From NCBI RefSeq assembly GCF_040364665.1, contig NZ_BAABWX010000008.1, forward strand, positions 10,750 to 74,749: a DNA stretch of 64,000 nucleotides, written 5' to 3'. Position numbers and translations under genes: made by a program. The notes beneath the pieces were generated by a model. It worked only from the letters and a program-made list of their open reading frames with translations, did no database searches and was not told where the DNA came from. This document shows positions 7,279 through 46,083 of the stretch, piece after piece. The first letter of the stretch is position 1. Every line of letters begins with the position of its first letter. Source of the stretch: Cognatishimia sp. WU-CL00825. Its GTDB lineage: Bacteria > Pseudomonadota > Alphaproteobacteria > Rhodobacterales > Rhodobacteraceae.

Positions 7279-7285
7279 TGGCACT

Positions 7286-8425: not shown

Positions 8426-8426
8426 T

Positions 8427-9626: not shown

Positions 9627-9627
9627 G

Positions 9628-10635: not shown

Positions 10636-11519
10636 AGATTGATATTTGCATCTGTACCTTTCGCCGTCCCTTTGTGGTGGAAACCCTGAAATCCATCGAG
10701 GCGGCGGATGTGCCCCAGGGGGCCGAGCTGCGTATCATCGTGATCGACAATGACGATACAGCCACCGCCCAAGAGCGCGTGGAAAGCACGGCCGCGACCA
10801 TGACACGCCCCGTGACCTATAGACATGCGCCCGGAGCCAATATCTCGATTGCCCGCAATGCGGGGCTGGATGCGGCGGATGGCGATTGGATCGCCTTTCT
10901 GGATGACGATGAGGTGGTTGAGCCCACTTGGCTGGTGGCGCTGGTGGACCGTCAGCAAGAGACAAATGCCGATGCGGTCTTTGGCCATAGCCGGGCTAAC
11001 TATGGACCCGACGCGCCGGATTGGATGATCAAAGGCGACTTTCATTCGCAATTTGCCGCGCCGCGCGGCGATGTGGTGGAAACCGGCCATACCTGTAATG
11101 CGCTGCTGCGCTGGGGGGATGCCCCCTGGCGGGACGAACGTTTTGCGCTGGAACGGGGTCGATCTGGCGGCGAAGACACCGAATTCTTTTTCCGCCTGCG
11201 CCAGATGGGCGCCAGCTATGCCATCGCAGATGCCTCTATTGTCAGCGAAGATGTGCCGCCTGCGCGCCTGAGCCTCGGCTGGCTGCTGCGCCGCCGGTTC
11301 CGCATTGGTCAAAGCTATGCGGCCTCGGCCCATGGTCTGCCGGCACGGGCCAAGCTGTTGGTTCTGGCATCGCTGAAATCTGCCTATAGTTTCCTGCGCG
11401 CCGGCCTGGCCTTTGGGGCGCAAGACCGCCGCGCCTTTTGGCTGATGCGCGGCACCATGCACGCCGGCGTCTGTGCGGGCTGTTTGAATGTGCGACAACG
11501 GGCGCTTTATGGCAGTTAA
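10632..11519 (+). CDS. exoM: ExoM-like GT2 glycosyltransferase
   Basis: A GT2 enzyme close in pattern to ExoM, the glucosyltransferase that adds the fourth sugar of the succinoglycan unit. It starts MKIDICICTFRRPFVVETL, has RIIVIDNDDTATA and ANISIARNAGLDAADGDWIA, then the DDD motif FLDDDEV for the metal and nucleotide-sugar, and ERGRSGGEDTEFFFRLRQ for acceptor activation. A hydrophobic C-terminal stretch follows. The start is the ATG overlapping the exoA stop; a longer upstream frame exists but lies inside exoA. It is about 295 aa, like ExoM. Confidence 0.83.
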   Translation: MKIDICICTFRRPFVVETLKSIEAADVPQGAELRIIVIDNDDTATAQERVESTAATMTRPVTYRHAPGANISIARNAGLDAADGDWIAFLDDDEVVEPTWLVALVDRQQETNADAVFGHSRANYGPDAPDWMIKGDFHSQFAAPRGDVVETGHTCNALLRWGDAPWRDERFALERGRSGGEDTEFFFRLRQMGASYAIADASIVSEDVPPARLSLGWLLRRRFRIGQSYAASAHGLPARAKLLVLASLKSAYSFLRAGLAFGAQDRRAFWLMRGTMHAGVCAGCLNVRQRALYGS

Positions 11520-11567
11520 TCCAAAGCGACGGGTAGGTAAGGTAAGCGGTATGACAAGGACAGAGCA

Positions 11568-12596
11568 ATGTTAAACGGATTACAATGCGGCCGTGCCGTT
11601 GCCGCGCTGATGGTGGCGGTGTTTCATGCCAATGTTTTTTTGCTGCCCAAGAACTTTTACAATGGCGAAGGTGCCGGCGTCGGCTTTAACTTTGGCTATG
11701 CCGGGGTTGAGTTTTTCTTTGTCCTCTCTGGTTTCATCATGGCCTTGGTGCATCGGCGCGACTTTGGTCAACCGGCGCAAGCCACGCGGTTTTTGCGCAA
11801 ACGCATCTTGCGGATTTACCCCATCTATTGGGTTGTGTTGACCGCGCTTTTGGCGATTTACTTTGCCGCGCCCGGCCGGGGCCCCGAACATGCCCGCGAA
11901 GGCTTTGCCATTCTGACATCCTATCTGCTGTTTCCCACCATCGATGGGCCGATCATGCAGATCGCCTGGACCCTGCAGCACGAGATGTTGTTTTACGCGG
12001 TGTTTACCCTGCTGATCGTGCATATTCGTTGGGGCATGGTCGCCTTTGGCGGCTGGATGCTGGCCTGTGTGATCTCGCTGCCGTTCTGGCCAGAGATGGC
12101 CTATCCGTTTGAATTTGTCCTAAAGGCGCACAACCTGCTGTTCCTGTTCGGCATCCTTGCCGCATTGGTCTATAAACACCTGTCCCAAAACATGGCGCGG
12201 CTGAGTTTCTGGGCCGGAACCCTGCTGTTTTTGGGGATTGGGCTTACCGAAACCATGGGGGGCATGGCCTTGTCTGAAAATATTCGCCCGCTTGGCTATG
12301 GGCTTGGCGCGGCGCTGGCGGTGATCGGATTGGCCCAGGGCAATCTGCCCGCGCCAAACTGGCTGACCTTTTTGGGCAATGCCTCTTATGCGATCTATCT
12401 CGTGCATTTGCCGGTGATGAACATCGCCGCAGTGCCCCTGCGCAAACTAGAGGTGCATACGATGATCCCGCCGCTGGCCATGCTGGCGCTGATAACTGTG
12501 ATTGTAACCATCGCCGGGTCTTTGGCCCATATCTATCTGGAAAAGCCGTTGATTGCGTTTTTTGCCAAACGCGCCGCCAAGAAATCTGCCGCCTGA
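11568..12596 (+). CDS. Second membrane acyltransferase 3 family protein
   Basis: Another acyltransferase-3 family O-acyltransferase, distinct from the one at 7343. It begins LQCGRAVAALMVAVFHANVF, with the family Arg and His. FGYAGVEFFFVLSGFIMA and FLRKRILRIYPIYWVV follow, then about ten membrane helices; the length of 342 aa is normal. It starts 48 bases after exoM and ends 22 bases before the sulfotransferase, so it belongs to the same operon. Two such enzymes suggest two acylation sites or two acyl groups on the exopolysaccharide. Confidence 0.83.
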   Translation: MLNGLQCGRAVAALMVAVFHANVFLLPKNFYNGEGAGVGFNFGYAGVEFFFVLSGFIMALVHRRDFGQPAQATRFLRKRILRIYPIYWVVLTALLAIYFAAPGRGPEHAREGFAILTSYLLFPTIDGPIMQIAWTLQHEMLFYAVFTLLIVHIRWGMVAFGGWMLACVISLPFWPEMAYPFEFVLKAHNLLFLFGILAALVYKHLSQNMARLSFWAGTLLFLGIGLTETMGGMALSENIRPLGYGLGAALAVIGLAQGNLPAPNWLTFLGNASYAIYLVHLPVMNIAAVPLRKLEVHTMIPPLAMLALITVIVTIAGSLAHIYLEKPLIAFFAKRAAKKSAA

Positions 12597-17077: not shown

Positions 17078-19039
17078 TCATGGCGCGGATGTGAGCCATC
17101 CGGCCTTGGCAGCCCGCTGCCCAAAGAGTTTGGCACCCGCAAGCGTCCAATGGGTGTCGTCATACATCGCCTTCAGACGATCCGGGGTCACAATGGTGCA
17201 AGCCTTTGGGCTGTCATCACAGATCAGGCTGCGGCGTGACAGAAAGCCTGCCCCTGCGGCTTCGGCAATCTCTTGAATATCCGCATTGCGCGCCCGGGCC
17301 ACCGGGTCTTCGAACTTGGGGGCCAAAGTGTTTAACTTGCTAAGGGCCGCCGCATCGCCGCTTTGGCGCAGATACCAATCAAACAAAGGCTGGGCGCCGC
17401 CCACATCAAATTCGGCGGTGCTGCCCGCCACAATCAGGGTCTTTCCCTGCCCTTTGAGGGCGCTCAGCATGGTGGCCAAAGCCGTGCGATATTCACGGTA
17501 ATATCTGGGGGCAATCAAGATGGTATCGCTGGCGGCAAAATTGGGCGCAGCGCGCAGCAGTTCCAGATCTGCCTGCAGAGATTTGCGGTGCAGGTTAAAG
17601 CGGGCAAATTCGGTATTGGGGAACTGATCGCTGTTCAGGCTCAGCGCATTAAACAGATCTTTGGAATGGGAATCGCCAATAATCAGCACCTTGCGGGTGT
17701 TTTCACCGGTGAACCAAAGCGCGGTTTTTTCGGTTTCCGAGGCGCGCAAAGCGTTCCACGAGCCGATGTCTTCGTCCGGCGAAAGCGCATCAAGCGGGCC
17801 CCAGCTGGCCTGGGCCAGAACCGTATTGTCGATTTCGTTTTCCCCGTAAAGCGCCGCAAGGTTTTTCAGCTTGCCGGTGGGGGCAATTGTGCCGCTGATG
17901 ATCAGGGCACACAGCAGGCACAGCGGCACCAGCGTCATGGTGACAATGCCCGCAAAAGGCTTGACGGACAGGCGAAAGCGAAAGGGTTTCTCGATCAGAT
18001 AATAGCCGGTGATCGACAGGGCAAAGGTCAGCGCCACCCAGCTCGCCATATCCACAAAACCCGGCGTGCCAATCTCGCGCAGGCGGCCAAAGGCAAAGAT
18101 CGGGAAGTGCCACAGATACAGCGAATATGACAGCTTGCCCACATAGACCACCGGCTTGGCCGACAGGGCCCGCGTGACCGGTTCGCCCGGGGCCATGAAC
18201 CAGATCAAGCCGCTGGTGGCCAAAATAACCGGGATCGTGACAAAGCCCGGATGTTGAATGGACACCAGATCCAGCATGACAATGCAGCCCAACAGCACCG
18301 CCAAAGACAGGCTGGGAATGATTTTATCCAGCAGCCCACCGCGCAGGGCATTGGGCGCAGACCGGGACAAAAACGCCAGCACAGAGCCGGCCAGCATTTC
18401 CCAGGCCCGGCTGGTGGGGGCATAGAATGACAGAGCGGAATGTTCCTGGGTCAGCCATTGCGCCGCCAACAGGCTCAGCACCAGACAGCCCATCAGAATG
18501 AACAACGCGATGCGCTGGCTCCAGCACCGCAACATCACAATCAAAAGCGGCGGAAAGACCAGATAGAACTGTTCTTCGATCGCCAGACTCCAGGTGTGCA
18601 AAAACGGCTGCAGCAATCCAGATTGCGCGCCATATTCGCTAAGTTCAAAGAACCAGAATGCGTTGCTGACAAAGAACAGCGCGCTGAGGATCGAATAGGC
18701 AAAGCGCTCAAGTTCGCTGGGCAAGAGCATAAACCAGGCCACCGGCAGGCTGCAGACCATCACCAACAGCAGGGGGGGCAAGATGCGTTTGGCGCGTCGC
18801 CAGTAAAATTGCAGAATGCTGATCTGGCCGGTCTTGCTGAATTCATCCACCAGAATTTGGGTGATCAGAAAGCCAGACAAAACAAAGAACAGATCCACCC
18901 CCAAAAACCCACCGGCCAGCAGAACCCCACCGCCCAGCTGAAGTTTCAAATGATAGATCATCACCGAGATCACAGCGACGGCACGCATGCCATCAATCTC
19001 TGGGCGGTAGCTCTTGGGTTTTCCGTTCAAATGCGTCAT
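17078..19039 (-). CDS. Acyltransferase 3 / SGNH bifunctional O-acetyltransferase (OafA-like)
   Basis: A 653-aa two-domain enzyme. The N-terminal acyltransferase-3 membrane domain (about residues 10-380) has YRPEIDGMRAVAVISVMIYH, FLGVDLFFVLSGFLITQIL and FYWRRAKRILPPL. The C-terminal extracytoplasmic SGNH domain has the catalytic block VLIIGDSHSKDLF and a C-terminal DDTHWTLAGA with the Asp-His pair. In OafA-type enzymes the membrane part passes the acyl group across the membrane and the SGNH part places it on the sugar. It is the first gene of the minus-strand exo run. The upstream region 19040-19246 holds no gene. Confidence 0.88.
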   Translation of the reverse strand: MTHLNGKPKSYRPEIDGMRAVAVISVMIYHLKLQLGGGVLLAGGFLGVDLFFVLSGFLITQILVDEFSKTGQISILQFYWRRAKRILPPLLLVMVCSLPVAWFMLLPSELERFAYSILSALFFVSNAFWFFELSEYGAQSGLLQPFLHTWSLAIEEQFYLVFPPLLIVMLRCWSQRIALFILMGCLVLSLLAAQWLTQEHSALSFYAPTSRAWEMLAGSVLAFLSRSAPNALRGGLLDKIIPSLSLAVLLGCIVMLDLVSIQHPGFVTIPVILATSGLIWFMAPGEPVTRALSAKPVVYVGKLSYSLYLWHFPIFAFGRLREIGTPGFVDMASWVALTFALSITGYYLIEKPFRFRLSVKPFAGIVTMTLVPLCLLCALIISGTIAPTGKLKNLAALYGENEIDNTVLAQASWGPLDALSPDEDIGSWNALRASETEKTALWFTGENTRKVLIIGDSHSKDLFNALSLNSDQFPNTEFARFNLHRKSLQADLELLRAAPNFAASDTILIAPRYYREYRTALATMLSALKGQGKTLIVAGSTAEFDVGGAQPLFDWYLRQSGDAAALSKLNTLAPKFEDPVARARNADIQEIAEAAGAGFLSRRSLICDDSPKACTIVTPDRLKAMYDDTHWTLAGAKLFGQRAAKAGWLTSAP

Positions 19040-25723: not shown

Positions 25724-26000
25724 TGACACTCATGCATGAATTTTTCGTTTAAAGACAGTATTTTAATAAATCAATCTCGATGCCCCAACCGCGGAGCCAC
25801 CCCAGGTTCACCCGCAGAGGCCACTCTTGTCATACGCGCAGCACCCTAGCCTCAGGCGTGGCCGCAAGCGTGATCTCAGGCGTTGCGCCAAACTCAGAGC
25901 AGAGCGGGCGCAGCGGTCACAAAATATTAGCGCTCTGCGCGGATCTCTTTCTGTGTTTCCGATGCCCTCGGCATCCCATTTCACACGCAAGGAGATCCGC
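25724..26000 (+). promoter_or_regulatory. Leader and possible promoter of the head-spike-like pair
   Basis: The gap 25635-26000 separates divergent units. TTGACA at 25728-25733 is a good -35 box for the plus strand. A weak TTTAAA-type -10 follows at slightly long spacing. A strong ribosome binding site (AAGGAG, 25989-25994) precedes the ATG at 26001. The remaining sequence includes a GCGCTCTGCGC-type GC-rich stretch but no gene. Confidence 0.35.
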
Positions 26001-26261
26001 ATGCCTGACCCCTTTGGCACCCATAGTCCCGGTCTTGAAAGCCCGGCCTCTGATATCTTTTCCATTCTGCCAAACGACGGGGTCGACCTGACAACGGCCA
26101 CCCGCGCCATCAATGTGGCGCAATCGGGCATGGTGCGGATCCAAACCGTTGGCGGCAGCACCGCCACGCTTTATGTGGCCGCAGGCATTGCCTTTCCGGT
26201 GCGGGCCCGCCGCGTTCTGGCCACGGGCACCGATGCCACTGGCATCGTGGGGCTGTTTTAA
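26001..26261 (+). CDS. Head-spike base-like protein (Rcc01079/GhsA family)
   Basis: An 86-aa protein with the pattern of the spike base family named after RCAP_rcc01079 of the Rhodobacter capsulatus gene transfer agent (GTA). It opens DPFGTHSPGLESPASDIF, then TPNDG-like ILPNDGVDLTTATRAINV, and closes FPVRARRVLATGTDATGIV. In the GTA this small protein forms the base that fixes a spike on the capsid and is needed for binding to capsular polysaccharide. ATG 26001 has AAGGAG at ideal spacing; a longer frame to 25827 is rejected. The stop overlaps the next ATG (TAATG), so the two are translated together. The family assignment is from memory of its sequence pattern. Confidence 0.75.
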   Translation: MPDPFGTHSPGLESPASDIFSILPNDGVDLTTATRAINVAQSGMVRIQTVGGSTATLYVAAGIAFPVRARRVLATGTDATGIVGLF

Positions 26262-27577
26262 TGCAGATCACCGTGGGATTGGGGCTGGGCAGCACCGCGC
26301 TGACCGGGCCGGGGGCCGCCCCCAACATGGGCCTGGTCAAACCACAGAACCTTTATACAGCAGCCCAGGCGGATTTTTCTGAAACCGCCCATATCAATCT
26401 GCGCGGCAATTGGACGGTGGCCCAGGGGGATCTGCAACAGATCACCGGCAATGGCAGCATGAATGATGTGCGCATGGATCTGGATACGCCCATTGTGGCG
26501 GGCCATCCCCATATTGCGCTTTGGCAGGCCGTGCCGGGCACCACTGGCACCTATCGCAGTCAATATGGCGGCGATGGCTCTTTATCTGGTGTCACCCTGT
26601 CGGGCGATGATCTGCGCCCCAAGTTTCACTGGACCCCAGCAGGCGATATCACCGGCAATTACACCCGCTATGGCTGGAACCCCACCCATGATGCTCTGGA
26701 TCTGCAGATCACCGATGTGGCGCTTTATGATCTGGCCACGGTAGACCCCAATACGGTGGCTTGTGATGTGGTGCTGTGTTTGGGCGACAGCAATATGGGC
26801 AACGCTGTGTCTGATCTGGTGACTGACGCCAATCTGACCACGGCCTTTGATCCGCGTGTCTGGTATATGCCCAGCCTGCGCATGTCACCCTATGCGTTTA
26901 ACAACACTTATAGTCTGCGCCATGTGCCCCAGCCCTGTATCGAACCGGTGCAGGCCAGCAGCGGGGCCGCACGCATGTCACCCCTGCAAGCCTTTGGCGC
27001 GCAATTTGCCCCCTATGCCACAGAGCGCGGCCGGCCTGTGCTGCTGTTGTCCCTTGGGGATGCGGGCGCGGGATTAAATGGCAGCGAAGACTGGCGCAAA
27101 TCCTCAGGCGTGGCGGTGACCGGTGGGCGCATGTATGGCGAAATGCTGGCCATGGTGGCGGCGCTGCAGGCGCTTGGCCCGGCCCATCAGATCGTTGGGG
27201 CCATTGTGTCGATTGGGGCCAATGACACCACCGGGGCTGATTATAACACGGTCTGGGTGCCGCAAGCGACGCAATTTGTGGCAGATCTGCGGGCTGAACC
27301 GAGCCTAAACAACGCCAACTTGCCAATCGTTTGGCTGACACCAGGCAGTCACTATGAGCCGATTTCCGGCGAAGACCGGGGCGCACGCATGATTGCTGCG
27401 ATTGAAACTTTGGACCAAGACAGCGGGTCCGCCCAGGCCATCACCGGGCTCAAATCTGTCCGGCCGCCCAATGGCAATCAACTGACCCCAGGTGACGCCA
27501 GCGATCCGCATTTCAACGCCACAGGCATGCAGGCCAATGGGACTGTGATGGCAGATATGTTGCGGGGAATGCTATAA
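26261..27577 (+). CDS. Head-spike fibre-like protein with SGNH-esterase signature (GhsB-like)
   Basis: A 438-aa protein coupled to the spike-base gene. The N-terminal 165 residues are beta-rich and lack a signal peptide. From residue 170 an SGNH hydrolase pattern is clear: block I VLCLGDSNMG (Ser177), a Gly block LLLSLGDAGAG, block III SIGANDTTG (Asn321), and block V ASDPHFNATG (Asp415, His417). This predicts a serine esterase able to remove O-acetyl groups from a polysaccharide. In the R. capsulatus GTA the partner of the spike base is the spike fibre GhsB (Rcc01080), a host-polysaccharide-binding protein. Position and coupling suggest the same pair here. No capsid, portal or terminase genes are nearby. 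Confidence 0.7.
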   Translation: MQITVGLGLGSTALTGPGAAPNMGLVKPQNLYTAAQADFSETAHINLRGNWTVAQGDLQQITGNGSMNDVRMDLDTPIVAGHPHIALWQAVPGTTGTYRSQYGGDGSLSGVTLSGDDLRPKFHWTPAGDITGNYTRYGWNPTHDALDLQITDVALYDLATVDPNTVACDVVLCLGDSNMGNAVSDLVTDANLTTAFDPRVWYMPSLRMSPYAFNNTYSLRHVPQPCIEPVQASSGAARMSPLQAFGAQFAPYATERGRPVLLLSLGDAGAGLNGSEDWRKSSGVAVTGGRMYGEMLAMVAALQALGPAHQIVGAIVSIGANDTTGADYNTVWVPQATQFVADLRAEPSLNNANLPIVWLTPGSHYEPISGEDRGARMIAAIETLDQDSGSAQAITGLKSVRPPNGNQLTPGDASDPHFNATGMQANGTVMADMLRGML

Positions 27578-27628: not shown

Positions 27629-28639
27629 TCAGATCTTAAAATAGTCTCTATACCAGCCCACAAAGGCTGCGACGCCTTCGGGAACCTCGGTGCTGGGCGC
27701 ATAGCCTGTGAGGCTGTTCAACAAAGAGGTATCCGCCCAGGTGGCTGGCACATCGCCGGGCTGCATCGCCATCATATTACATTGGGCTTTGCGCCCCAGC
27801 GCTGTTTCCAAGGCACGGATGAAATCCATCAACTGCGTGGGTTTAGAGTTGCCGATATTCACCACCCGGTGCGGAGCCACAGGCGACAGGCTGTCATACC
27901 CCCCCACACTGTCAGTGCCCGGAGGCACATCCATCAGCTGACGCATGCCCTCGACGATATCATCCACATAGGTGAAATCACGCTGCATATCGCCGCCATT
28001 ATACACGTCAATCGCCTCGCCGTTCAAAATCGCCTTGGTGAATTTAAACAGCGCCATATCGGGCCGTCCCCATGGGCCATAGACCGTGAAAAACCGCAGC
28101 ATGGTGATCGGCAGATCATAGAGATGCGCATAGGAATGGCTCATCGCCTCATTGGCCATTTTGGTGGCCGCATAAAACGACATCTGCGCGCTTGTCTTAT
28201 CGGTCTCGCGATAGGGCATCTGGGTATTGGCCCCATAGGCTGACGAGGTCGAGGCCATCAGCATATGTTTGGGCGGATGGGCGCGGGCGGCCTCGATCAG
28301 CTCAAACACCCCCATCAGATTGGCCTCGGCATAGGCGCGCGGGTTGTCGATCGAATAGCGCACCCCGGCCTGGGCGGCGAGATGGATCACCGCCTCAAAG
28401 CCATGGGTCGCAAACAGATCCAGCAACAGGCCCGGTGTTTCCACCTTGCCGGTGATGGCGGTGAAATCCGCATGTGGGGTCAGTTGATCCAAACGTGCCT
28501 GTTTCAGCGCCGGGTCATAATAGTCATTCAGACTGTCGACCCCCACCACCAAATAGCCATCCGCCAGCAGACGCTGACACATATGAAAACCAATAAACCC
28601 GGCCGCGCCGGTCACCAAGACGGAAGGTTTTTCAGCCAC
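27629..28639 (-). CDS. UDP-glucuronate 4-epimerase
   Basis: Converts UDP-glucuronate to UDP-galacturonate, an acidic building block. An extended short-chain dehydrogenase of 336 aa with the NAD-binding motif VLVTGAAGFIGFHM, the catalytic Ser/Tyr/Lys set (STSSAYGA ... YAATK), and the subfamily hallmark MLRFFTVYGPWGRPDMALFKF of LpsL/GAE-type epimerases. The start is GTG at 28639, supported by AAAAGGAG upstream. It is the last gene of kdsD-kdsB-kdsA-epimerase, so GalA and Kdo are made together, probably for the Kps-type capsule. It is convergent with the spike-like pair. Confidence 0.9.
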   Translation of the reverse strand: MAEKPSVLVTGAAGFIGFHMCQRLLADGYLVVGVDSLNDYYDPALKQARLDQLTPHADFTAITGKVETPGLLLDLFATHGFEAVIHLAAQAGVRYSIDNPRAYAEANLMGVFELIEAARAHPPKHMLMASTSSAYGANTQMPYRETDKTSAQMSFYAATKMANEAMSHSYAHLYDLPITMLRFFTVYGPWGRPDMALFKFTKAILNGEAIDVYNGGDMQRDFTYVDDIVEGMRQLMDVPPGTDSVGGYDSLSPVAPHRVVNIGNSKPTQLMDFIRALETALGRKAQCNMMAMQPGDVPATWADTSLLNSLTGYAPSTEVPEGVAAFVGWYRDYFKI

Positions 28640-28656
28640 GTTAGGCTCCTTTTGAC

Positions 28657-29484
28657 TTACAGCTCCTTGCGCAGCGCATCAAAGGCGCGCAGCTCGCTGA
28701 TCAGATCTGCCATTTGATCCACCGGGATCATATTGGGGCCGTCGCTTGGGGCCTGATCCGGGTCTTGGTGGGTTTCAATAAACAGCGCAGACACGCCCAC
28801 AGCACAGGCCGCCCGCGCCAAAACCGGGGCAAATTCACGTTGCCCGCCCGAGGTTGTCCCCTGACCACCCGGCTGTTGCACCGAATGGGTCACGTCAAAC
28901 ACCACCGGATAGCCGGTGGCGGCCATGGTCGGCAGCCCGCGAAAATCGCTGACCAACGTGTTATAGCCAAAGGATGTGCCGCGATCACACAGCATGATGT
29001 TTTCATTGCCGGTGCTGGCGATTTTTTCCGCCACATTGCCCATGTCCCAAGGGGCCAGAAACTGCCCCTTTTTGACATTGATCGCAGCACCAGTTTGACC
29101 CGCGGCCAGCAGTAAATCGGTCTGGCGGCACAAAAACGCCGGGATCTGGATGACATCACAGACCTCGGCGGCGGGCGCGCACTGATCGGCCGTATGCACA
29201 TCGGTCAGGATCGGGCAGCCAAACTCAGCTTTGATCTGGCCCAAGATCTTAAGACCCTCATCCATGCCCAAACCCCGTTGGGTGGTGATCGAGCTGCGGT
29301 TGGCCTTGTCGTAGCTGGCTTTGAAAATGAACTCTGTGCCAGAGACCGCGCAGGCCTCGGCGATCTTTTCGGCCATCATGCGCGCATGATCCAGACTTTC
29401 CAGCTGGCACGGTCCGGTGATCAGCGCAAAGGGATTGGGGCCGCCAATTGCGATGTCACCGATGGTTACGATTTTCTCTTGCAT
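28657..29484 (-). CDS. kdsA: 3-deoxy-8-phosphooctulonate (Kdo-8-P) synthase
   Basis: Condenses arabinose-5-phosphate with phosphoenolpyruvate to Kdo-8-phosphate in the cytosol. The typical KdsA blocks are present: [101 protein letters not shown]. At about 275 aa it is full length. The ATG at 29484 overlaps the kdsB stop as TGATG; a GTG immediately upstream is possible. A second, chromosomal copy for lipopolysaccharide would be expected, so this one probably serves the capsule. Confidence 0.95.
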
Positions 29485-30275
29485 CACAGATCCTTCAATA
29501 CGCTTTCAATCCGGGGCACGTCCTCGGGGTTATTAAGCTCCCAGAACACCCGGCCTTTGCCCTGCACAATCACGCAGCGCAGCTTGGTGTCATTGACCAG
29601 AAACCGCAGCTGTTCGAGCCCCTCAAGGGTCTCAAGCGCACTCACTGGCCAGCTGGTATAGGCGGCCAAAGCCTCGGGGCGATAGGCATAGACACCGACG
29701 TGATGATAGACCGGAATATCTGTTTCGGGCACTTTATCAGGGTCTATAAAGGGCAAAACCTCTTTGGAAAAATACAGCGCATGGCCCTTGGCGTTAAACA
29801 CCGCTGTGGTGCCGCCGACGCGGCCAGCTTTGCGGTCTTCGGTAAAATGGCCATAGGTCAGCGGGTCACATTGCAACACAGGCGTCGCCACCTGCGCCTC
29901 GGGGTCAGCTTTCATGGCGGCGATCAGATCTTCGACAAACCAAGCCGGTGTCAGCGGCGCATCGCCCTGCAGGTTCACAATCAGATCGGCCTGAATGTCA
30001 GCCCTGGCCAAAGCATCCGCACAGCGCGCAGTGCCGTTTTCACAGGCCTCTGAGGTCATGATGACATCGGCGCCAAAATCCTCGGCCGCCGCTTTGATGC
30101 GCGCATCATCGGTGGCGACATAAACCCCATCGACACCTTTGACGCCCATCGCGGCTTCCCAGCTCATGCGGATCAGGCTTTTGCGGCTGCCATCGGGCAG
30201 GGTCAGTTCTGCCAGAGGTTTGCCGGGATAGCGCGTCGAGGCATAACGCGCGGGAATGATAATAACTGTTTTCAT
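29484..30275 (-). CDS. kdsB: CMP-Kdo synthetase (3-deoxy-manno-octulosonate cytidylyltransferase)
   Basis: Activates Kdo with CTP to CMP-Kdo for glycosyl transfer. Motifs: [17 protein letters not shown] with the nucleotide-binding PAR and [35 protein letters not shown] with the metal-binding Asp, [12 protein letters not shown] and LEQLRFL. The length of 263 aa is normal. In group 2 capsule loci this is KpsU. Its ATG overlaps the kdsD stop (ATGA). Confidence 0.94.
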
Positions 30276-31270
30276 GCGATACCTGCGCGCAAAAGATCAT
30301 GGATATGCAGAATGCCAACGGGGCGGCCTGCGTCATCGGTCACCGCAAGGGCCCCGATTTTACGGTCATTCAGAATGGCCAACGCCTGCGCACCCAACAG
30401 CTCTGGCTGCACGGTTACAGGCTCTGTATTGGCGATTTCACCGGCGGTCTTGCCCATCAACACATCCATGTTGCGGCGCAAATCCCCATCCGAAATCACG
30501 CCTTTCAGCCGCCCGTCTTCCAGCACCAGCGCCACGCCAAAGCCTTTGGAGGTCATGGTCAGCAACACATCCGACATCGGCGCATCTGCGGCGACAATCG
30601 GCAGACGATCCGCCCCATGCATGACGTCTTGCACGCGGGTCAGCTGGCTGCCCAGCTTACCGCCCGGATGAAACACATGAAATTCATCAGCGCTAAAGCC
30701 GCGTTGTTCCATCACCGCCACCGACAGCGCATCCCCCAAAGCCAATGTCAAAGTGGTCGAGGTGGTTGGGGCTTTGCCAATCGTGCAAACCTCGGGAATT
30801 TTCGGCAGAGCCAGGCGGTAATCCGCGGCCTGCATCAAGGTGCTGTCAGGATTGGATGAAATCGCAATCAGCGGAATGTTAAAGCGCCGGGTATAAAGCG
30901 TGATGTCGCGCAGCTCGGCGGTTTCGCCAGAATTTGAGATCAGAATACACAGGTCATGGCGCGTGACCATGCCCAGATCCCCATGGCTGGCCTCGGCCCC
31001 ATGCACAAAATAGCTGGGCGTGCCGGTGCTGGCAAAAGTGGCGGCAATCTTACGGCCAATATGACCGGATTTTCCGACACCCGACACCACAACGCGGCCC
31101 TTGATTTCAAGGATCCGCTGCACCGCTTGGACAAAATCTCCAGGCAAATTCTGCGCCATCTGCTGCAGCGCGGCGGCTTCTTTTTCCAGCACAGATTGTG
31201 CGACCCGGGTCACCGCTTGCGCATTCAGGTGTGCCGAATTTCCCGGCCCTGCTTCACTCAACACAGACAT
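30272..31270 (-). CDS. kdsD: D-arabinose-5-phosphate isomerase (KdsD/KpsF)
   Basis: Makes arabinose-5-phosphate from ribulose-5-phosphate, the entry step to Kdo. It has an N-terminal SIS domain (about residues 45-190: VVVSGVGKSGHIGRKIAATF, SEAS-like GAEASHGDLGM, LILISNSGET-type CILISNSGETAEL). Two CBS domains follow (about 210-333). Length is 332 aa from ATG 31270; a GTG one codon earlier is also possible. It is the first gene of the Kdo operon. No Kdo-8-P phosphatase (kdsC) is present here, so a chromosomal one must complete the pathway. Confidence 0.94.
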   Translation of the reverse strand: MSVLSEAGPGNSAHLNAQAVTRVAQSVLEKEAAALQQMAQNLPGDFVQAVQRILEIKGRVVVSGVGKSGHIGRKIAATFASTGTPSYFVHGAEASHGDLGMVTRHDLCILISNSGETAELRDITLYTRRFNIPLIAISSNPDSTLMQAADYRLALPKIPEVCTIGKAPTTSTTLTLALGDALSVAVMEQRGFSADEFHVFHPGGKLGSQLTRVQDVMHGADRLPIVAADAPMSDVLLTMTSKGFGVALVLEDGRLKGVISDGDLRRNMDVLMGKTAGEIANTEPVTVQPELLGAQALAILNDRKIGALAVTDDAGRPVGILHIHDLLRAGIA

Positions 31271-31356
31271 CACTGACCTCTTTCATCGCTTCTCAGAGTT
31301 CTGCCTCGTGGTAGCAGTCACCAGAAATGACCACAACAAACAATCCAAGCCTTCCC

Positions 31357-31373
31357 CCATTGCCGCGCAATGG
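31357..31373. promoter_or_regulatory. Inverted repeat between kdsD and the export lipoprotein gene
   Basis: CCATTGC (31357-31363) and GCAATGG (31367-31373) are a perfect 7-bp inverted repeat with three bases between. They lie in the 210-bp divergent promoter region of the Kdo operon and the Wza/KpsD-like gene. A shared operator for both directions is plausible. The half-site GCAATG also occurs at the ends of the parS-like palindrome at 57780-57807, probably by chance. Confidence 0.3.
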
Positions 31374-31483
31374 ACCTGAAACCCACACCCCGGCAGATGA
31401 TCTTTTGAAACAGAGTTTTTAGCCTGTCCATGACGCGCCCGCCTCGCTAGAAGGAAGCAAATAACTTTCTTCGGCGGATCCTT

Positions 31484-32590
31484 GTGACGTTCTTTTTCAA
31501 AATCTTTGCACTTTGCATATCCCTTGCAACATTGACCGGATGTGCCATCCCACGCGGGGCGGCATTGTCAGATGAAATCCTGAAAGAACAAGATGCCGCC
31601 GACCCGGCCTATCAGGTTGTCACGGTGTCGCAGGACAATATCCAGCGTCTGATGGCCTGGCCAGAAACCGGCAACAGCTTTCGGTGGATCAACAAAAGAA
31701 ATGGGCCTGCCAGCCCGCTGATCCGCACCGGAGACCGCATCACCGTCTCTATCTGGGACAATCAAAGCAACTCATTGTTGACCGCGCCCTCATCCAAGCA
31801 AGCCACCCTGCCCGATCTGGAAGTCTCCCCCACCGGCAAGATCTTCATCCCCTATCTTGGAGATGTCGAAATCCGCAATATGACACCAGATCAGGCCCGG
31901 CAAAAAATCCAATTTGCCCTAGAGGCCATTGTGCCCTCCGCACAGGTGCAAATGAACCTTGTCGCCGGGCAACAGAACTCGGTTGATCTGATCAGCGGTG
32001 TCGCCCGCCCCGGCACCTATCCACTGCCCAATCGCAATTACGCCCTGCTCAGCCTGATCGCGCAAAGCGGCGGCATTCAATCCACATTGCGCAATCCGGT
32101 TGTCCGGTTGATCCGCCAAGGCAAACGCTATGAAATTCCGGTTGACCAACTGAAGTCAGACCCGAAATTTGACATCACTTTGCGCGGAAACGACAAGGTT
32201 TTGATCGAGCAAGACACCCGCTATTTCACCGCGCTGGGGGCCACTGGCCGAGAAGAGCTGGTCCATTTCCCGCGGGCTAACGTCACCGCACTCGAAGCCA
32301 TGTCGATGATTGGCGGCCTGTCAGATCAACGGGCAAACCTGAATGCTGTTCTGCTGCTGAGAGACTATTCTAAGGCCGATATCAAGCCCAACGGCCCGCA
32401 AAAGCAGCAGGTGGTGTTTGTGTTTGATCTCACCTCGGCAGACGGGCTCTTTGCCGCCCGCAAGTTCCACATCCAACCGCAAGACACGCTCTTGGCGACC
32501 GAAACCGTGATCACATCAGCCCGCACCGTGCTGGGCGTGATTGGGGCGGCGATCGGGGTAAGCAATGCCGCCAGCAATCTGGTGAACTAG
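31484..32590 (+). CDS. Capsule polysaccharide export lipoprotein (Wza/KpsD-like)
   Basis: An outer-membrane polysaccharide export protein of 368 aa. The signal peptide ends in the lipobox LTGC (FKIFALCISLATLTGC), so it is a lipoprotein. The poly-export domain reads LIRTGDRITVSIWDN ... LEVSPTGKIFIPYLGDVEIRN. SLBB domains follow (VDLISGVARPGTYPLPNRNY; ALGATGREELVHFPRANVTAL). The C-terminus is amphipathic, as for the barrel-forming helix. The start is GTG at 31484, and a longer leader with AAGGAAG lies 30 bases upstream. Lying next to the Kdo operon, it is probably the exit channel for the KpsMTE transporter encoded 18 kb away, while ExoF serves the EPS. Confidence 0.88.
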   Translation: MTFFFKIFALCISLATLTGCAIPRGAALSDEILKEQDAADPAYQVVTVSQDNIQRLMAWPETGNSFRWINKRNGPASPLIRTGDRITVSIWDNQSNSLLTAPSSKQATLPDLEVSPTGKIFIPYLGDVEIRNMTPDQARQKIQFALEAIVPSAQVQMNLVAGQQNSVDLISGVARPGTYPLPNRNYALLSLIAQSGGIQSTLRNPVVRLIRQGKRYEIPVDQLKSDPKFDITLRGNDKVLIEQDTRYFTALGATGREELVHFPRANVTALEAMSMIGGLSDQRANLNAVLLLRDYSKADIKPNGPQKQQVVFVFDLTSADGLFAARKFHIQPQDTLLATETVITSARTVLGVIGAAIGVSNAASNLVN

Positions 32591-33710: not shown

Positions 33711-33794
33711 GATCTGTCTCCGATAGGGTCCGCATCAGCCTATGAAGAAGGCCCTAACAAGCCCTGAGACCCCCGCACGACCCCGCCGCAACGC

Positions 33795-38938: not shown

Positions 38939-41305
38939 CTATTGGCGGTGCAGCGCCATTGATTTCAAACACAGGGTCAGCTTTTCCGCAATCTGCCCAA
39001 CGCCCAGCGACAACGGGCTGACCGCATGGGTCGCCTGCACACGCAGAGGCAAAAGCCCATGCACCAACATCTCGGCAGACACCGGAACCTGGATGATTTT
39101 GTCGCTCTGATCTCCCCTGCGCCACCGAAGATCCACCACATGCCGCTCGCCCACAATAAGCTTGATTTGCTGGGGCTGCGGCAGCTTTGCCGCATTAAAG
39201 GGCCGCACCACCAGCTCCAGCTGATACTGCGCGCCCTTTGCCAAAGCCAGACGCAGACCACAGCTGGCGTTCTTTTTGTGAAACCAGAAACCTTCACTGC
39301 CAATACGCCCGACCTTGTCATGCACAAGGGCGTCTTTCAGCGTGGCGCTTTGCTCGTGGGTAAAAGCCAGAGTGTCCCCGGGCAAAAGCCCTGAAATGCC
39401 CTGCGCCAAGTCGCACAGGCGGTCCTTGGGGAAAGTCTCTAGGTATTTCGTCGGACGGAATTTTGGCAAGGCCATAGGCGTGCCGGACATGGCCTCTGAC
39501 AGAGACTCAAAACAACGCACATTGTAGCGCCCCGTGCCGTAATAATAGTCAAAGAATTTATAGCTGTCTTCCCCGCCCACCGATTTCAGCCAATAGGCGG
39601 GAATCCCAAGGCTCTCTGCAAAAATGACACCATGCAGCGAGCTGGAATACACCGCCTCGGCCCCCAGCATCCCCAGCACCATGTCCAACGGGGTGCTGTC
39701 CACGGGCAGAAACGCATGATGCACATGTTTGTGCATGCGGCGCATCAAAAGATCATCGCGAAAATGCGGCACAATCCGAAACGGACCCCGGTCCTGGTTT
39801 TGGGCAACATCAAAAGCTTTGATCTGCTTTTTATACAGATATGCCACCAGGCAGCCCGGATCAAAAACCTCGGTTACCTGACCCACGTCAAAGCCCGCTT
39901 CGCGCAGAAAATCCAAGGTCAGCGGGCCACGCACCGCCCGCACATCCAGCGATTTCACACTGGGATGCAGCTTGCGCTCGGTGCCCTTCAGGCCCGCCCC
40001 CCAAATGACATCCCGGTCACGGGCCGTATGCAAGACCGACCCGACAGAAATCAGCTTTGGCACGCCCGCAAGCGGCCTCGCAGCCCGATAGCCGCTGATT
40101 GCCTCGACAATTTCCTTGGCCGCCAGATCGCCAAAGTTACCTGTCTTGAACCGACGTTCCCCAAGGTCGCCGTCAAATTTCTTACCGGCGCTGTCCCACC
40201 AGAACATCGGGATCTCAGCATTTGCCGGCAGCGGCCAATCCGGGATCTTCGGGGCAGAGCTTCCTGGGGGCACATCCGTGATCGACACCCCCCAATCCAA
40301 GACCTCAACCGGCTTTAACACCCGCTCTAAATCAGCGCGATCAAGCTCTGTGATGGCAAGGTTTTCATCATTGATCCCATAAGACACCGCCAGGTCTTCC
40401 AGCGCGGCGCCCCGCAGCTGCGCCCCGCAGGGGTAGACCACAGACATCACTTCGCTGTTTAACTTCTCAAACTCAAACCCCTCATGGCTGTTCATGTTCA
40501 GCTCTATGGGCTGCACCGAACACCGCGTCACCTGAAAGGGGGGCTGGCTGCTAAATTCATAAAGGCAGGCTTCGTATTTGCGCCCCCCCGGCACTTTGTA
40601 ACTGGAATGGGCCACCGAGACGAACCGCGCCTCGCCCTCAACCTGCCATAACAGCGGCTGTGCCCCACCACGCAAAACCCCAAAGATCGTGGAGTATTCA
40701 TTCTGCCAGGCCACATTGGCAACCGGGCGGCACACAATATCTTCGCTGCCGGAGAAATCCACAGCCAGCACCACATGCGGCGAAATCGAATACACGCAAT
40801 AGGTTTGCTCTTGCGCGGTAAAGAACATCCAGTTTTTCTCAACCGTCCGCCGCGCCATCCCCTGCAACCTCAACCGGCGGGCCACCCCTGCAGGGCGCAG
40901 GCCCGAGCTGTCCATCTCCAGCAGAAACTGGTTGTTTTGCGGCCGGTTCTCACCATCATTCCAGGACAGGTAAATCCGGCCCTGCAAAACCTGATAACGG
41001 GGATCCGCATGCCAGTTCAGCGCCCGTTCGTTCAACGCCTCTGGGGCGGCAAACTCAATCAGGTCGCTCAGGGGGGTCACCGTCTCGGGCACAATGTTGA
41101 AATTCTCGTCCAGCAGGCAGGTCGCCATGCCCCGAAAATTGAGATGGGGCTGCACTATCCGGTAACACATTGCATAGCCATTTTCGACCGGCGCAAGCGT
41201 TGGGTTAAAGATCATGCAATTCGCAGAAAGTTTGCTCATCCATGCAGCGGGGATCAAATCACGCCTGTAAAAGCCATATGCCTGGGACAGGGTCAGATCA
41301 TACAT
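38939..41305 (-). CDS. Beta-propeller / polysaccharide pyruvyltransferase fusion
   Basis: A 788-aa multidomain protein. Residues 1-330 have the look of a five-bladed GH43/GH130-type propeller (CMIFNPTLAPVENGYAMCYRIVQP, LNWHADPRYQVLQGRIYLSWND, NWMFFTAQEQTYCVYSISPHVVL). Residues 365-620 carry the pyruvyltransferase pattern: FKTGNFGDLAAKEIVEAISG, VIWGAGLKG, VRAVRGPLTLDFL, DPGCLVAYLY, YSSSLHGVIFAESLGIPAYW. The last 140 residues are a beta-sandwich-like domain. It would add pyruvate ketals, giving acidic sugars, like ExoV. The propeller might recognise or trim the acceptor; no catalytic residues could be assigned. A ribosome site AAAGG precedes ATG 41305. Confidence 0.75.
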   Translation of the reverse strand: MYDLTLSQAYGFYRRDLIPAAWMSKLSANCMIFNPTLAPVENGYAMCYRIVQPHLNFRGMATCLLDENFNIVPETVTPLSDLIEFAAPEALNERALNWHADPRYQVLQGRIYLSWNDGENRPQNNQFLLEMDSSGLRPAGVARRLRLQGMARRTVEKNWMFFTAQEQTYCVYSISPHVVLAVDFSGSEDIVCRPVANVAWQNEYSTIFGVLRGGAQPLLWQVEGEARFVSVAHSSYKVPGGRKYEACLYEFSSQPPFQVTRCSVQPIELNMNSHEGFEFEKLNSEVMSVVYPCGAQLRGAALEDLAVSYGINDENLAITELDRADLERVLKPVEVLDWGVSITDVPPGSSAPKIPDWPLPANAEIPMFWWDSAGKKFDGDLGERRFKTGNFGDLAAKEIVEAISGYRAARPLAGVPKLISVGSVLHTARDRDVIWGAGLKGTERKLHPSVKSLDVRAVRGPLTLDFLREAGFDVGQVTEVFDPGCLVAYLYKKQIKAFDVAQNQDRGPFRIVPHFRDDLLMRRMHKHVHHAFLPVDSTPLDMVLGMLGAEAVYSSSLHGVIFAESLGIPAYWLKSVGGEDSYKFFDYYYGTGRYNVRCFESLSEAMSGTPMALPKFRPTKYLETFPKDRLCDLAQGISGLLPGDTLAFTHEQSATLKDALVHDKVGRIGSEGFWFHKKNASCGLRLALAKGAQYQLELVVRPFNAAKLPQPQQIKLIVGERHVVDLRWRRGDQSDKIIQVPVSAEMLVHGLLPLRVQATHAVSPLSLGVGQIAEKLTLCLKSMALHRQ

Positions 41306-41398
41306 TGGGCAACCTTTAAAATTAAGTTAGAATAGATTTTGCCGTCAAAGCGCCAGATAATCGCATCAAATGCAACCCAAAAGACCAACGCGCCCTGT

Positions 41399-43849
41399 TC
41401 ACAAAAAGATCAGGACCTCTGCCAAGCCGGACATGGAGGCCAGCCCGTCAAATGTCAGGCTATCACTTCCAAAATCCAAAATCACCCGCCCGTTTTCCAC
41501 CCGGCCAAAATCGTCAATCACCGCCAGCCCATCCCTGGCACCAATCCCCAGCATATCCCGATCCAGCGCGACGCGATCCCCATGGGCAAAGCGAAAATCT
41601 TCGATGCGATCATGCCCGGCATTAAACACAAAGGTATCTGCGTGGGTGCCGCCCCGTAAAACATCATTGCCCGGGCCGCCATCCAACCGGTCCTGATGCG
41701 CCCCCCCGTTCAGGTAATCATTGCCCTGCCGGCCAAACAGGCGATCAGCCCCCTCGCGGCCAAACAGCCGATTGGCCTCACGATCGCCAAACAGGCTGTC
41801 CCCATAGGCCCCGCCCGCCAGATCTTCGATGCTGCTATAGCTGTCCCCTGCGGCCTCGCCGGTGTTAAACCTCGGCATCGCCAGGTCCGCAACAATCGCG
41901 GTCAGGCTTTCCGAATATTGCGCCCGATCACGATGGCTTCCACCGATCAGCGTGTCGCGCCCCACGCCGCCAAACAGCACATCATCACCAATGCCCCCCT
42001 CCAGAATATCATCCCCACGGCGGCCAAAAATATAATCAACGTTTCGCCCCCCTGCGATGTAATTGTCCCCAAATGTGCCGCGCAGATTGTCAAACCCTTG
42101 CGACCCAATAATGTTTTCGATGCTAAAATAGGTGTCGCCCGCGGCAACATTTGTATTGATATGGGCAAACAACAAATCTACGCGCAGACTGCCGCGGCTG
42201 TCCTCATAACTGACGGTGTCGCTGCCCGCCCCGCCTCGCAATGTATCTGCCCCCGCAAGCCCGCGCAGGATGTCATCTGCGGCGCTGCCCTGCAGCAGAT
42301 CATTTTGCGCCGTGCCCTCAATCAGAAAATCCTGCGCGCCAAACTGCAAATCTGTGCGGGTGAAATTCTGCATCACCGCGGCGCTCAACTGCGCCACACT
42401 CAACGAAGCCCCATCCGCGGTGCGCACAATCAATCGTTCGTCGCCAAACTCGATGCGCCCGCCGCCGGCCGTGCTGAAAAACTGCAGCAAAGACCGGCCA
42501 TACAGCCCTGACCAGCCGGTCAGATCAATCAGGTCCAGCCCGGCTTCAAAATCCACAATACGATCGTCCTGCCCGTCTCCGGAAAGGATAAAGATATCGC
42601 GCCCATCCCCGCCTTCAAACCGGTCCCGGCCCATACCGCCGATCAGAATATCATCTCCGCCCCAGCCATAAAGCTGCTCATCCCCCGCCGCGTCATACAG
42701 AATATCGCTGCCCGCCCCGCCTGACAGGGCCGCATCAAGCCCAGCGGTCCGTTCCAAGCCAACGCTTGGCAAGGTAACGGTGAAATGCGACACCCCCGCC
42801 TCGTTGGCACTGCCCGCAAAGACCTGCAGCTGCGTGCCGTCATAATGCAATTGCAGCGCCGAGACCTGCGCCAGAGACAGATTGCTCAAATCCTCTTGCA
42901 CATCCAGCATCAACAGTTGCCCCTGTGGCAAAAGCTGAAACAGGGTCAAACCGCCATCCGTGCCCCCGGTCATGACAAAGACCCGCCCGTCGACCTCGAT
43001 GGTTTCTAAAACACTGACCCCCTGAAAGCGGCTGAACTGGTCATCCACCAGATGGTCCACGGGCGTCAGGCTGCCATCTGTGCCCAAACGCAAAACGCTC
43101 AGTGACGAACTGCCAGAGGCCGCCACCAGCAAATAGTGCACACCGCCAACCGCCACCGCTGCCAGCGCCTGAGGCGCGGCAATGCCCAGCCCCTGCTCGG
43201 CCCCCAGACTGCCGCGATACAGCAGCCCGCCCGCAGCCCCCACTTGGTAGCAAGACAGGTGGTGACCCGTGGCCGAGGCCGTCACCAGAAACGGCTGCGC
43301 CCCAAGCGTCACCGTCAATAGGCTGCTGATGTCATCGCCGCCATCTGCCATGCCCAGGTCCGGGGCACGGGTGTTTGTCATGACCCCGGAAGAGGCCAGC
43401 TGATATCGCCCAACCCCCGGCCCGCCCAGGTTGGCGGTAAACACATAGGTCTGCCCCTCCAGCGTAAGGCTTGTCATCGCGGTCAGGCTTGTGTCCAAAT
43501 GCGCCCCGCTCAGCGCCACTCCGCTGCTGGTCAAACGCCCATCCACCAGCTGATAGCTGGGCAGCACATTGCCCGAAGCCACGGTGGAACAGATCAAAAC
43601 ATCCGTCCCAACGGTGAGGCTATGCACCCCCACAGGCCCCAGGCCATTCAGGATCTCTGAGATAAAAGAGCTGCCCAGAAAATCCGTAGAGCCTGGCCCC
43701 AGCAAATAGCTGGTCACCTCTCCGGTTGCCCGGCTGGTTGCCAGCAAAACGTGCCCGGCATCCGTCTCTAGGATGTCCAGATCATCAATCGTCAAAACCG
43801 CGTCCAAAGGCGCGCCCAATTGCGTCGCCCGATGTGTCAGATGTACCAC
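41399..43849 (-). CDS. RTX protein with N-terminal beta-propeller
   Basis: About 816 aa, secreted by type I. Residues 1-360 form repeated blade-like units (VLLATSRATGEVTSYLLGPG, VLICSTVASGNVLPSYQLVDG, YVFTANLGGPGVGRYQLAS, FLVTASATGHHLSCYQVGAA) typical of a WD40/YVTN-like propeller. RTX repeats follow (GGAGSDILYDAAGDEQLYGW, then several sets up to residue 770), and the end is LAEVLIFL. I choose GTG 43849 because GGGAGG lies six bases upstream; a longer frame to 43912 has no ribosome site. Propeller plus RTX suggests a binding protein of the cell surface or matrix rather than an enzyme. Confidence 0.78.
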   Translation of the reverse strand: MVHLTHRATQLGAPLDAVLTIDDLDILETDAGHVLLATSRATGEVTSYLLGPGSTDFLGSSFISEILNGLGPVGVHSLTVGTDVLICSTVASGNVLPSYQLVDGRLTSSGVALSGAHLDTSLTAMTSLTLEGQTYVFTANLGGPGVGRYQLASSGVMTNTRAPDLGMADGGDDISSLLTVTLGAQPFLVTASATGHHLSCYQVGAAGGLLYRGSLGAEQGLGIAAPQALAAVAVGGVHYLLVAASGSSSLSVLRLGTDGSLTPVDHLVDDQFSRFQGVSVLETIEVDGRVFVMTGGTDGGLTLFQLLPQGQLLMLDVQEDLSNLSLAQVSALQLHYDGTQLQVFAGSANEAGVSHFTVTLPSVGLERTAGLDAALSGGAGSDILYDAAGDEQLYGWGGDDILIGGMGRDRFEGGDGRDIFILSGDGQDDRIVDFEAGLDLIDLTGWSGLYGRSLLQFFSTAGGGRIEFGDERLIVRTADGASLSVAQLSAAVMQNFTRTDLQFGAQDFLIEGTAQNDLLQGSAADDILRGLAGADTLRGGAGSDTVSYEDSRGSLRVDLLFAHINTNVAAGDTYFSIENIIGSQGFDNLRGTFGDNYIAGGRNVDYIFGRRGDDILEGGIGDDVLFGGVGRDTLIGGSHRDRAQYSESLTAIVADLAMPRFNTGEAAGDSYSSIEDLAGGAYGDSLFGDREANRLFGREGADRLFGRQGNDYLNGGAHQDRLDGGPGNDVLRGGTHADTFVFNAGHDRIEDFRFAHGDRVALDRDMLGIGARDGLAVIDDFGRVENGRVILDFGSDSLTFDGLASMSGLAEVLIFL

Positions 43850-46019: not shown

Positions 46020-46083
46020 CCCCGCCGTCAAACCTGACTTGCACCAAATACACCAAGCGCTTTAGCTTGGTGTCACACAATAA

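Follow-up and report, generated by a model that had tools for sequence, protein, structure and literature searches.

A predicted gene transfer agent head-spike pair with an esterase-like fibre on a capsule/exopolysaccharide replicon of Cognatishimia sp. WU-CL00825

We analyzed a 64,000-nucleotide stretch of DNA from Cognatishimia sp. WU-CL00825 (the window; positions 10750-74749 of the 74,749-base contig NZ_BAABWX010000008.1, here C8, in an assembly of 3.62 Mb), in which two coupled genes resemble those for the head spike of the Rhodobacter capsulatus gene transfer agent (RcGTA). It is quite likely that this pair is the head spike of a gene transfer agent (GTA) encoded on the chromosome, carried on a capsule/exopolysaccharide (EPS) replicon, expressed together with the GTA and fitted to the polysaccharide of that replicon. 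The open reading frames (ORFs) for the base (26001-26261) and the fibre (26261-27577; see Table 1) overlap as TAATG, as had been noted in the original prediction from the DNA alone, which also assigned the first gene to the Rcc01079 spike-base type. This assignment holds: residues 3-82 of the 86-amino-acid (aa) protein align with the RcGTA spike base Rcc01079 (PDB 6tb9 chain E3) with an E value of 7.5e-13, and the protein also matches phrog_12296 (E 3.3e-22). At the level of sequence comparison, chance is excluded as the source of the Rcc01079 match, and a jellyroll fold is suggested for the base by homology. The only clear spike base of the genome is located on C8, which is a capsule/EPS replicon of RepA type; no second one was found in the genome. 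The next match (C1:267930, E 0.28) was rejected, because a 292-aa gene called on the opposite strand encloses it.

The 2.14-Mb contig C1, which was taken as the chromosome, contains a GTA cluster at 1131256-1144935 (gene calls), including a GTA_TIM gene; the genes of the cluster other than GTA_TIM and the capsid gene were identified by eye only. The capsid protein matches Rcc01687 (E 9.8e-178), and therefore the host encodes an RcGTA-type capsid for the spike base. The proposal that the spikes arm a chromosomally encoded GTA is thus supported by the spike-base match and by the location of the cluster on C1, and the incorporation of the pair into such particles may be inferred.

The fibre begins with MQITVGLGLG, in which hydrophobic residues occupy positions 1, 3, 5, 7, and 9 (five in all only with Met1 included), a pattern that resembles residues 2-10 of the RcGTA fibre (PMC7296036). 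The fibre of R. capsulatus SP108 begins with MSALGLGLGL. The window protein thus has the alternating-hydrophobic N-terminal anchor of the RcGTA fibre, and its binding to the five pockets of the base is predicted. Under our coupling rule, a coupled downstream gene was recognized at 76 of 114 spike-base sites and not at the remaining 38, two of which (L124 and L125) have a star-like gene adjoining on the opposite strand. The "star" pattern (three alternating hydrophobic residues, spaced by G/S/A/T, within the first 14 residues) was found in 35 of the 76 coupled genes versus 26 of the 1274 other genes of the same loci; when four steps were required and the spacing residues were left free, the figures were 31/76 versus 97/1274.

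In the AlphaFold2 (AF2) model of the fibre (18 sequences), the mean predicted local distance difference test score (pLDDT) is 86, and residues 1-19 are disordered. In Foldseek searches, the sandwich resembles carbohydrate-binding modules (CBMs) of the CBM16/CBM29 kind (2zew, E 1.7e-5; 1w8t, E 4.1e-4), and the SGNH part resembles the CE2 esterase 2waa (1.9e-9), 1zmb (2.3e-9; template modelling (TM) score 0.67 by target), the Pan3 tailspike 9vyh (6.3e-9), NanS 3pt5 (1.7e-6), and an acetylxylan esterase, all of these matches having low sequence identity and whole-query TM-scores of at most 0.45. Many phage SGNH proteins were among the BFVD structure matches. Furthermore, Pfam SASA exceeded its cut-off (28.9 versus 24.8 bits, residues 169-432). 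Because of the layout of the AF2 model and the Foldseek matches, the fibre is best read as a putative anchor, sugar-binding module, and O-acetylesterase in one chain. The two functions considered in the original prediction, spike or O-acetylesterase, look like two halves of one protein. The SGNH motifs are GDSN (175-178), GAND (319-322), and PHFN (His417), which we take to represent block I (Ser), block III (Asn), and block V (His). An alignment of 18 rows, made up of the query and 17 relatives (one of them truncated), shows invariant columns for GDSN and nearly invariant ones for GAND and the His; the Ser, Asn, and His expected of an SGNH esterase are conserved in these columns. We lean, with some reserve, towards an active esterase. 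A tblastn search with the fibre against plasmid records gave no relative. As a separate observation, three proteins of 608-618 aa (P0011-P0013), one of them from Salipiger, bear the same sandwich-esterase module on an Ig-like N-terminus, not on a star peptide, which suggests module exchange between adhesins.

The original prediction had missed that the sole DUF2793 gene of the genome is on the same replicon, and that it shares a promoter-like motif with the spike pair. The encoded candidate GTA tail fibre scores 97.6 bits for PF10983 against a cut-off of 27, and thus has the DUF2793 domain; no second copy was found in the genome. The protein also resembles 8gtc chain S (E 5e-12), for which the tool gives the molecule name "Ribonuclease III" and which we take to belong to a Dinoroseobacter phage baseplate-tail complex. 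DUF2793 was present in 237 of the 295 genomes of the family Rhodobacteraceae surveyed (one per genus). Spike base and DUF2793 occur together on at least four plasmids (Palleronia NZ_CP136763, Limimaricola NZ_CP139694, Tritonibacter NZ_CP110387, and Leisingera NZ_CP083559) among the matches listed, which comprise 50 of 156 DUF2793 records. DUF2793, the family of the RcGTA tail fibre, co-evolves with GTA genes (PMC10883770), and the RcGTA tail fibre binds capsule (PMC10218006).

The shared motif is 28 nt long, roughly SCGYRCGSWSS-N2-TAA-N6-gTTAAc, with a -35/-10-like spacing. It was learned by expectation maximization (EM) from one seed with sigma70-like spacing on the upstream regions of the 114 spike bases, including that of the window, whose DUF2793 promoter was outside the training set. 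At 12 bits or more, it was found in this sample in 70/114 spike upstreams versus 21/641 upstreams of other genes of the same loci. In a two-fold test, the held-out halves gave 34/57 and 29/57 versus 19/641 and 16/641, figures that rest on a seed informed by the full set, because the same seed run on half of the data did not recover the motif (3/57 and 2/57 at 12 bits). The sets described next were scored with a fixed matrix and are independent of this problem. Outside the training set, 11 of 20 DUF2793 genes of other genera reached 12 bits or more, and 16 of the 20 best matches start 68-80 nt before the ATG. A further set came from named genomes (the best 80 of 134 spike-base loci, from which one too short and eight training duplicates were removed); here 20/30 spike bases from Rhodobacterales, some of them closely related, had the motif, versus 2/41 from other or unassigned orders. 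Three of six further plasmids also reached 12 bits, and two more scored 10.3 and 11.7. A side case is the metagenome-assembled Magnetovibrio contig PBKU01000006 (L303), where a spike pair has the motif at 17.8 bits and the N-terminus of the fibre is close to that of Sulfitobacter; this would reflect transfer or mis-binning.

An IUPAC version of the motif, composed to match both window sites and allowing one mismatch, had 12 matches in the whole genome versus 6 for a reversed control. One of the ten other matches (L251, L340) lies 106 nt before a tailspike-like beta-helix gene (C1:144352), which adjoins class-I lysS (recognized by eye) and is thus in a tspA-like position; for the remaining nine, no link to the GTA was seen. 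In R. capsulatus, GafA binds 50-100 bp upstream of tspA (PMC13420450). At RcGTA g1, its binding site lies 76-125 bp upstream, and a region of the protein resembles a sigma factor (PMC6363796); this fits the position of our motif, without being a proof. GafA may therefore be the reader of the motif, and the motif shared by both window genes points to a GTA and not to a phage. Judging from these promoter sequences, the spike pair and the DUF2793 gene are probably co-regulated with the GTA. Of the other signals searched for, full CtrA sites (TTAA-N7-TTAA) showed no real enrichment (5/114 spike upstreams versus 17/641) and were rejected, and half-sites occurred in 62/114 versus 210/641. In a dyad search, the best p value was 1.3e-3 among 123,387 dyads and nothing survived correction, and most other EM seeds gave low-information G+C motifs.

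A rival possibility is that the pair is a cell-surface or secreted esterase that trims the O-acetylated polysaccharide of its own cell, off any particle. The predicted esterase fold and the AT3 acyltransferases on the same replicon would suit such an enzyme, as would P0011-P0013, in which the module is joined to Ig-type N-termini rather than to the star anchor. However, no enzymatic role is evident for the base, which is nevertheless coupled to the fibre; the latter has retained the pattern of an anchor for the capsid base, and the motif is common to tail-fibre genes. A secretion signal was not seen by eye, no signal-peptide tool having been used. We therefore consider this explanation improbable.

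Relatives of the spike base were found in 98 of the 295 genomes, in 28 plasmid records (all below 60% identity), in 31 phage records (among them RcapNL, at 46%), and in 15 viral contigs. Of the 98 spike-base genomes, 94 also had a GTA_TIM gene (3 of these as a weak match only), versus 165 of the 197 without a spike base (Fisher p 0.002), although the family also occurs in apparent prophages. Over all 106 further spike sites of these genomes, with up to 8 kb on each side, at least one of 24 polysaccharide markers (proteins from the window and three annotated plasmids) was found at 59 sites, versus 2 of 30 control stretches taken from 30 of the same genomes at self-chosen places on long contigs. 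Around DUF2793 genes (about 5 kb on each side), a marker was found at 11 of 20 sites picked away from GTA_TIM among the matches listed. For a tally of Pfam families, which does not depend on these markers, 110 random neighbour genes (of 369, from 75 of the 106 sites) were compared with 110 control genes. Glycosyltransferase families led the tally of the neighbours, with Glycos_transf_1 in 9 genes, Glyco_transf_4 in 7, and Glycos_transf_2 in 5; NTP_transferase was found in 4, and Bac_transf, Wzy_C, and Polysacc_synt in 3 genes each. The 25 commonest (of 159) families of the control genes include none of the seven. The original prediction had named a location mainly beside a secretion system as a contrary outcome. 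No secretion-system family was among the 25 commonest families of the neighbour genes, and in the regions read the relatives were found beside polysaccharide genes and in phages.

Recurrence on polysaccharide plasmids, which the original prediction had raised as a question, was observed: polysaccharide genes lie near the spike base in 11 of the 13 annotated plasmid regions read (of 28), those of Cereibacter pORIO5 and Thioclava FTW29 having none nearby. The gene that follows the spike base carries an esterase annotation (SGNH/GDSL or sialate O-acetylesterase) in Limimaricola, Cereibacter, and Thioclava. As to gene order, on four plasmids of Sulfitobacter, Roseivivax, and Marinovum (NZ_CP020699, NZ_CP083567, NZ_CP045361, and CP010864) the spike pair directly follows two partition genes and is itself followed by similar flippase, acyltransferase, and sulfotransferase genes, so that pair and flanks appear to form a cassette common to several genera. 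Loci L262-L339, from Rhizobiales, Sphingomonadales, and Caulobacterales, also have spike bases, many with star-like fibres and mostly without the motif.

The phage and viral relatives may suggest that the pair is a remnant or cargo: a tailed phage (RcapNL-like) would have left its spike genes on the plasmid, where they would serve phages and not the GTA. However, no phage structural domain other than DUF2793 was found in the 30 window genes scanned with Pfam, and many genera likewise have a spike base next to polysaccharide genes. Furthermore, the motif was found at 12 bits in none of the 15 viral spike bases (best score 9.1; three share one sequence, and three matches begin inside the protein, so that the true upstream was possibly missed), against the 20 of 30 Rhodobacterales copies given above. 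A phage origin in this sense therefore seems unlikely, and we regard it as very likely that the pair is a GTA spike encoded by the host and not a phage product.

Whether each fibre fits the polysaccharide encoded beside it was assessed by comparing pairs of loci. Similar neighbour genes accompanied similar fibres in 14 of 51 fibre-similar pairs versus 26 of 2952 others; among pairs with similar bases, the figures were 5/26 versus 10/334. In one fibre family of seven loci (L066, L067, L077, L084, L116, L344, and L345), 13 of 21 pairs share at least two neighbour genes, and fibre and flanks largely move together. Clear support for the proposed fit of the spike to the polysaccharide of its replicon thus comes from this one family, together with the precedent of R. 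capsulatus (PMC10218006). For the window, that the fibre would act on the polysaccharide of the same replicon has about even chances. The 43 of 78 fibres that have no similar fibre in the set, together with 47 of the 106 spike sites that lack polysaccharide markers, could also be explained if the pair were a non-functional hitch-hiker, spike and polysaccharide loci being merely in variable, often exchanged DNA. However, intact frames, translational coupling, the star peptide, and the promoter-like motif argue for selection, and this explanation appears very improbable. Such diversity of fibres on a conserved base is expected of a swappable receptor-binding part.

Several points weigh against a GTA head spike that is fitted to the polysaccharide of its own replicon. 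The marker-less sites have just been mentioned; in addition, the control stretches lie on long contigs at places of our choice and not on small replicons, and 13 of the 14 positive fibre pairs come from the seven-locus family. Four genomes have a spike base without GTA_TIM, and three of them still score 14.9-17.1 bits for the motif. The upstream region of the host's own GTA operon scores only 7.8 bits, and the spike promoter of R. capsulatus SP108 itself 5.9. Among GTA operons (20 picked and the host's, of which 19 were scorable, in 700-nt windows without a matched background), five reached 12.0 bits or more, two of these in apparent coding sequence. In R. capsulatus, late genes are under GafA/CtrA control, with putative GafA sites in two of three promoters (PMC9638019). 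Because the motif is weak at the GTA operon and at the R. capsulatus spike promoter, it may be an accessory-gene form of the GafA promoter, or that of another regulator. As for the fibre, no PDB sequence match was found, and beyond the N-terminus no comparison is offered by Rcc01080, of which only residues 2-10 are resolved. The "all four SGNH blocks" of the original prediction are right except for block V, since its Asp is neither conserved nor at the expected spacing of three residues before the His: the residue preceding PH, two before the His, is Asp in 13 of the 17 rows having it. Another acid could replace it.

If the pair is the head spike of the chromosomal GTA, the 86-aa base would form a pentamer on the capsid vertices, and the fibre N-terminus (MQITVGLGLG) would plug into its hydrophobic pockets. 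The flexible fibre would then bind polysaccharide through the carbohydrate-binding sandwich and deacetylate it with the SGNH domain, removing O-acetyl groups maybe added by the AT3 enzymes of the replicon. The particles could in this way bind, or come loose and move inwards, before the DUF2793 tail fibre acts. The spike pair and the DUF2793 gene would have a promoter type in common, probably GafA-dependent, and be expressed along with the GTA, so that a cell carrying the replicon would release particles fitted to cells that display the replicon's own polysaccharide. A broader "lock and key" arrangement, in which the Rhodobacterales replicons that encode a polysaccharide coat also encode the GTA receptor-binding proteins recognizing this coat, wired by a shared promoter to the chromosomal GTA, is put forward tentatively, as somewhat short of an even chance.

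GTA production kills the producer cell, which raises the question of how its benefit is kept within the kin group. If the plasmids that bring polysaccharide genes also bring the receptor-binding proteins, the host range of GTAs would be modular and horizontally movable. If the lock-and-key arrangement is true, acquisition of a replicon would re-aim the GTA of the cell at other carriers of the same replicon, and would thereby filter for kin, in the manner of a greenbeard, in a system of altruistic DNA sharing. The motif offers a route to finding GTA accessory genes across genomes, and a head spike with an esterase would join TspA as a second GTA enzyme active on the matrix.

Table 1. Features of the window (positions are those of the 64,000-nucleotide stretch)
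Feature	Position	Strand	Evidence
Head-spike base, GhsA/Rcc01079-like, 86 aa	26001..26261	+	Ribosome-binding site aaggag
Predicted head-spike fibre of 438 aa (GhsB-like by its position and its anchor), including an esterase-like domain	26261..27577	+	TAATG coupling; SASA; AF2
Fibre residues 1-19, disordered "star" anchor peptide MQITVGLGLG...	26261..26317	+	pLDDT <50
Fibre residues 51-157, beta-sandwich, CBM16/CBM29-like	26411..26731	+	Foldseek
Fibre residues 169-437, SGNH/SASA O-acetylesterase-like domain	26765..27571	+	Pfam SASA 169-432; Foldseek
Promoter-like motif GCGGGCGCAGCGGTCACAAAATATTAGC, starts 97 nt before spike-base ATG	25904..25931	+	19.4 bits
Same promoter-like motif, starts 70 nt before DUF2793 ATG	33753..33780	-	15.1 bits
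Candidate GTA tail fibre (Rcc00171-like), a DUF2793 protein of 360 aa	32628..33710	-	PF10983 97.6 bits
Capsule-type module: epimerase, DAHP_synth_1 protein, SIS-CBS isomerase, Poly_export	27629..32590		Pfam
EPS module: sulfotransferase, Wzz/kinase, two AT3 acyltransferases, two GT2	299..12596		Pfam
Flippase, by eye, in EPS module	3416		No Pfam match
AT3-SGNH acyltransferase	17078..19039	-	PF01757 + PF19040
Two pyruvyl-transferase-domain proteins, GT2, ABC ATPase, ABC-2 permease	38939..52652		Pfam
Replication/partition module	57850..61838		RepA PF10134 332 bits, ParA AAA_31/CbiA
ParB-position gene	57850-58863	-	No Pfam match
ParA	58984-60474	-	AAA_31/CbiA
RepA	60846-61838	+	PF10134 332 bits
Rhamnose genes adjoining repA: rmlC, rmlB-like	61928..63998	+	PF00908, PF16363
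rmlD, assigned by eye	63531 onward	+	

The other features agree with a polysaccharide plasmid of RepA type, in that rml genes adjoin the RepA replicase gene on C8 (Pfam). The promoter matrix also matches, at 58944-58991 between parA and the gene in the ParB position, two inverted copies of GCGTACGC (17.9 and 14.9 bits), which are probably partition-site palindromes. In the capsule-type module, the DAHP_synth_1 protein is presumably KdsA-like and the SIS-CBS isomerase KpsF-like, and a further protein was taken by eye as KdsB-like. The AT3-SGNH acyltransferase is a possible source of the O-acetyl groups that the fibre would remove. An RTX-repeat protein with a GH16 domain (22782-25634, minus strand; Pfam) adjoins the spike genes and is possibly a secreted glycanase for the polysaccharide of its own replicon. 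An RTX-repeat subtilase (S8) with a P-domain (33845-37438, minus strand; Pfam) directly adjoins the DUF2793 gene. In R. capsulatus, GTA production is repressed by an RTX-like protein (PMC10218006).

The replicon shares its RepA replicase, adjoining rml genes, and EPS genes with the biofilm plasmids that a study of 2016 reportedly described; GTA adhesin genes are not known to form part of that description. In the titles and abstracts listed by full-text literature searches, we found no description of a spike-capsule linkage on plasmids, across genera, or with an esterase fibre, nor of the motif. The adjacency of capsule and spike genes itself is already known for R. capsulatus, where the genes for GhsA/GhsB are separate from the GTA cluster and have capsule genes next to them (PMC10218006, PMC7296036). 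The window pair shares this arrangement with the RcGTA head spike, as well as the homologous base and the fibre directly downstream with an alternating-hydrophobic N-terminus. It differs in lying on a RepA replicon with polysaccharide modules, in its promoter-like motif (19.4 bits versus 5.9 in R. capsulatus SP108), and in its fibre, which has 438 aa against 325 in the published RcGTA fibre and contains the CBM-like sandwich and the SGNH esterase-like domain. Similarly, the DUF2793 gene of the window has in common with that of the RcGTA tail fibre Rcc00171 the domain, a promoter-like motif of its own, and a single copy in the genome; it differs in its location, some 5 kb away from the spike pair on the polysaccharide replicon. 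TspA, a biofilm-degrading GTA tailspike (PMC13420450), is likewise a virion-associated enzyme that acts on matrix sugars, as the window fibre is by prediction; however, TspA is a beta-helix tailspike encoded elsewhere, whereas the window fibre is an esterase predicted on the head. The tailspike 9vyh of cyanophage Pan3, CE2 esterases, and NanS share the SGNH fold with the window fibre, in CE2 joined to a beta-sandwich. Those esterases are free enzymes or tail proteins, whereas that of the window sits behind a head-spike anchor peptide.

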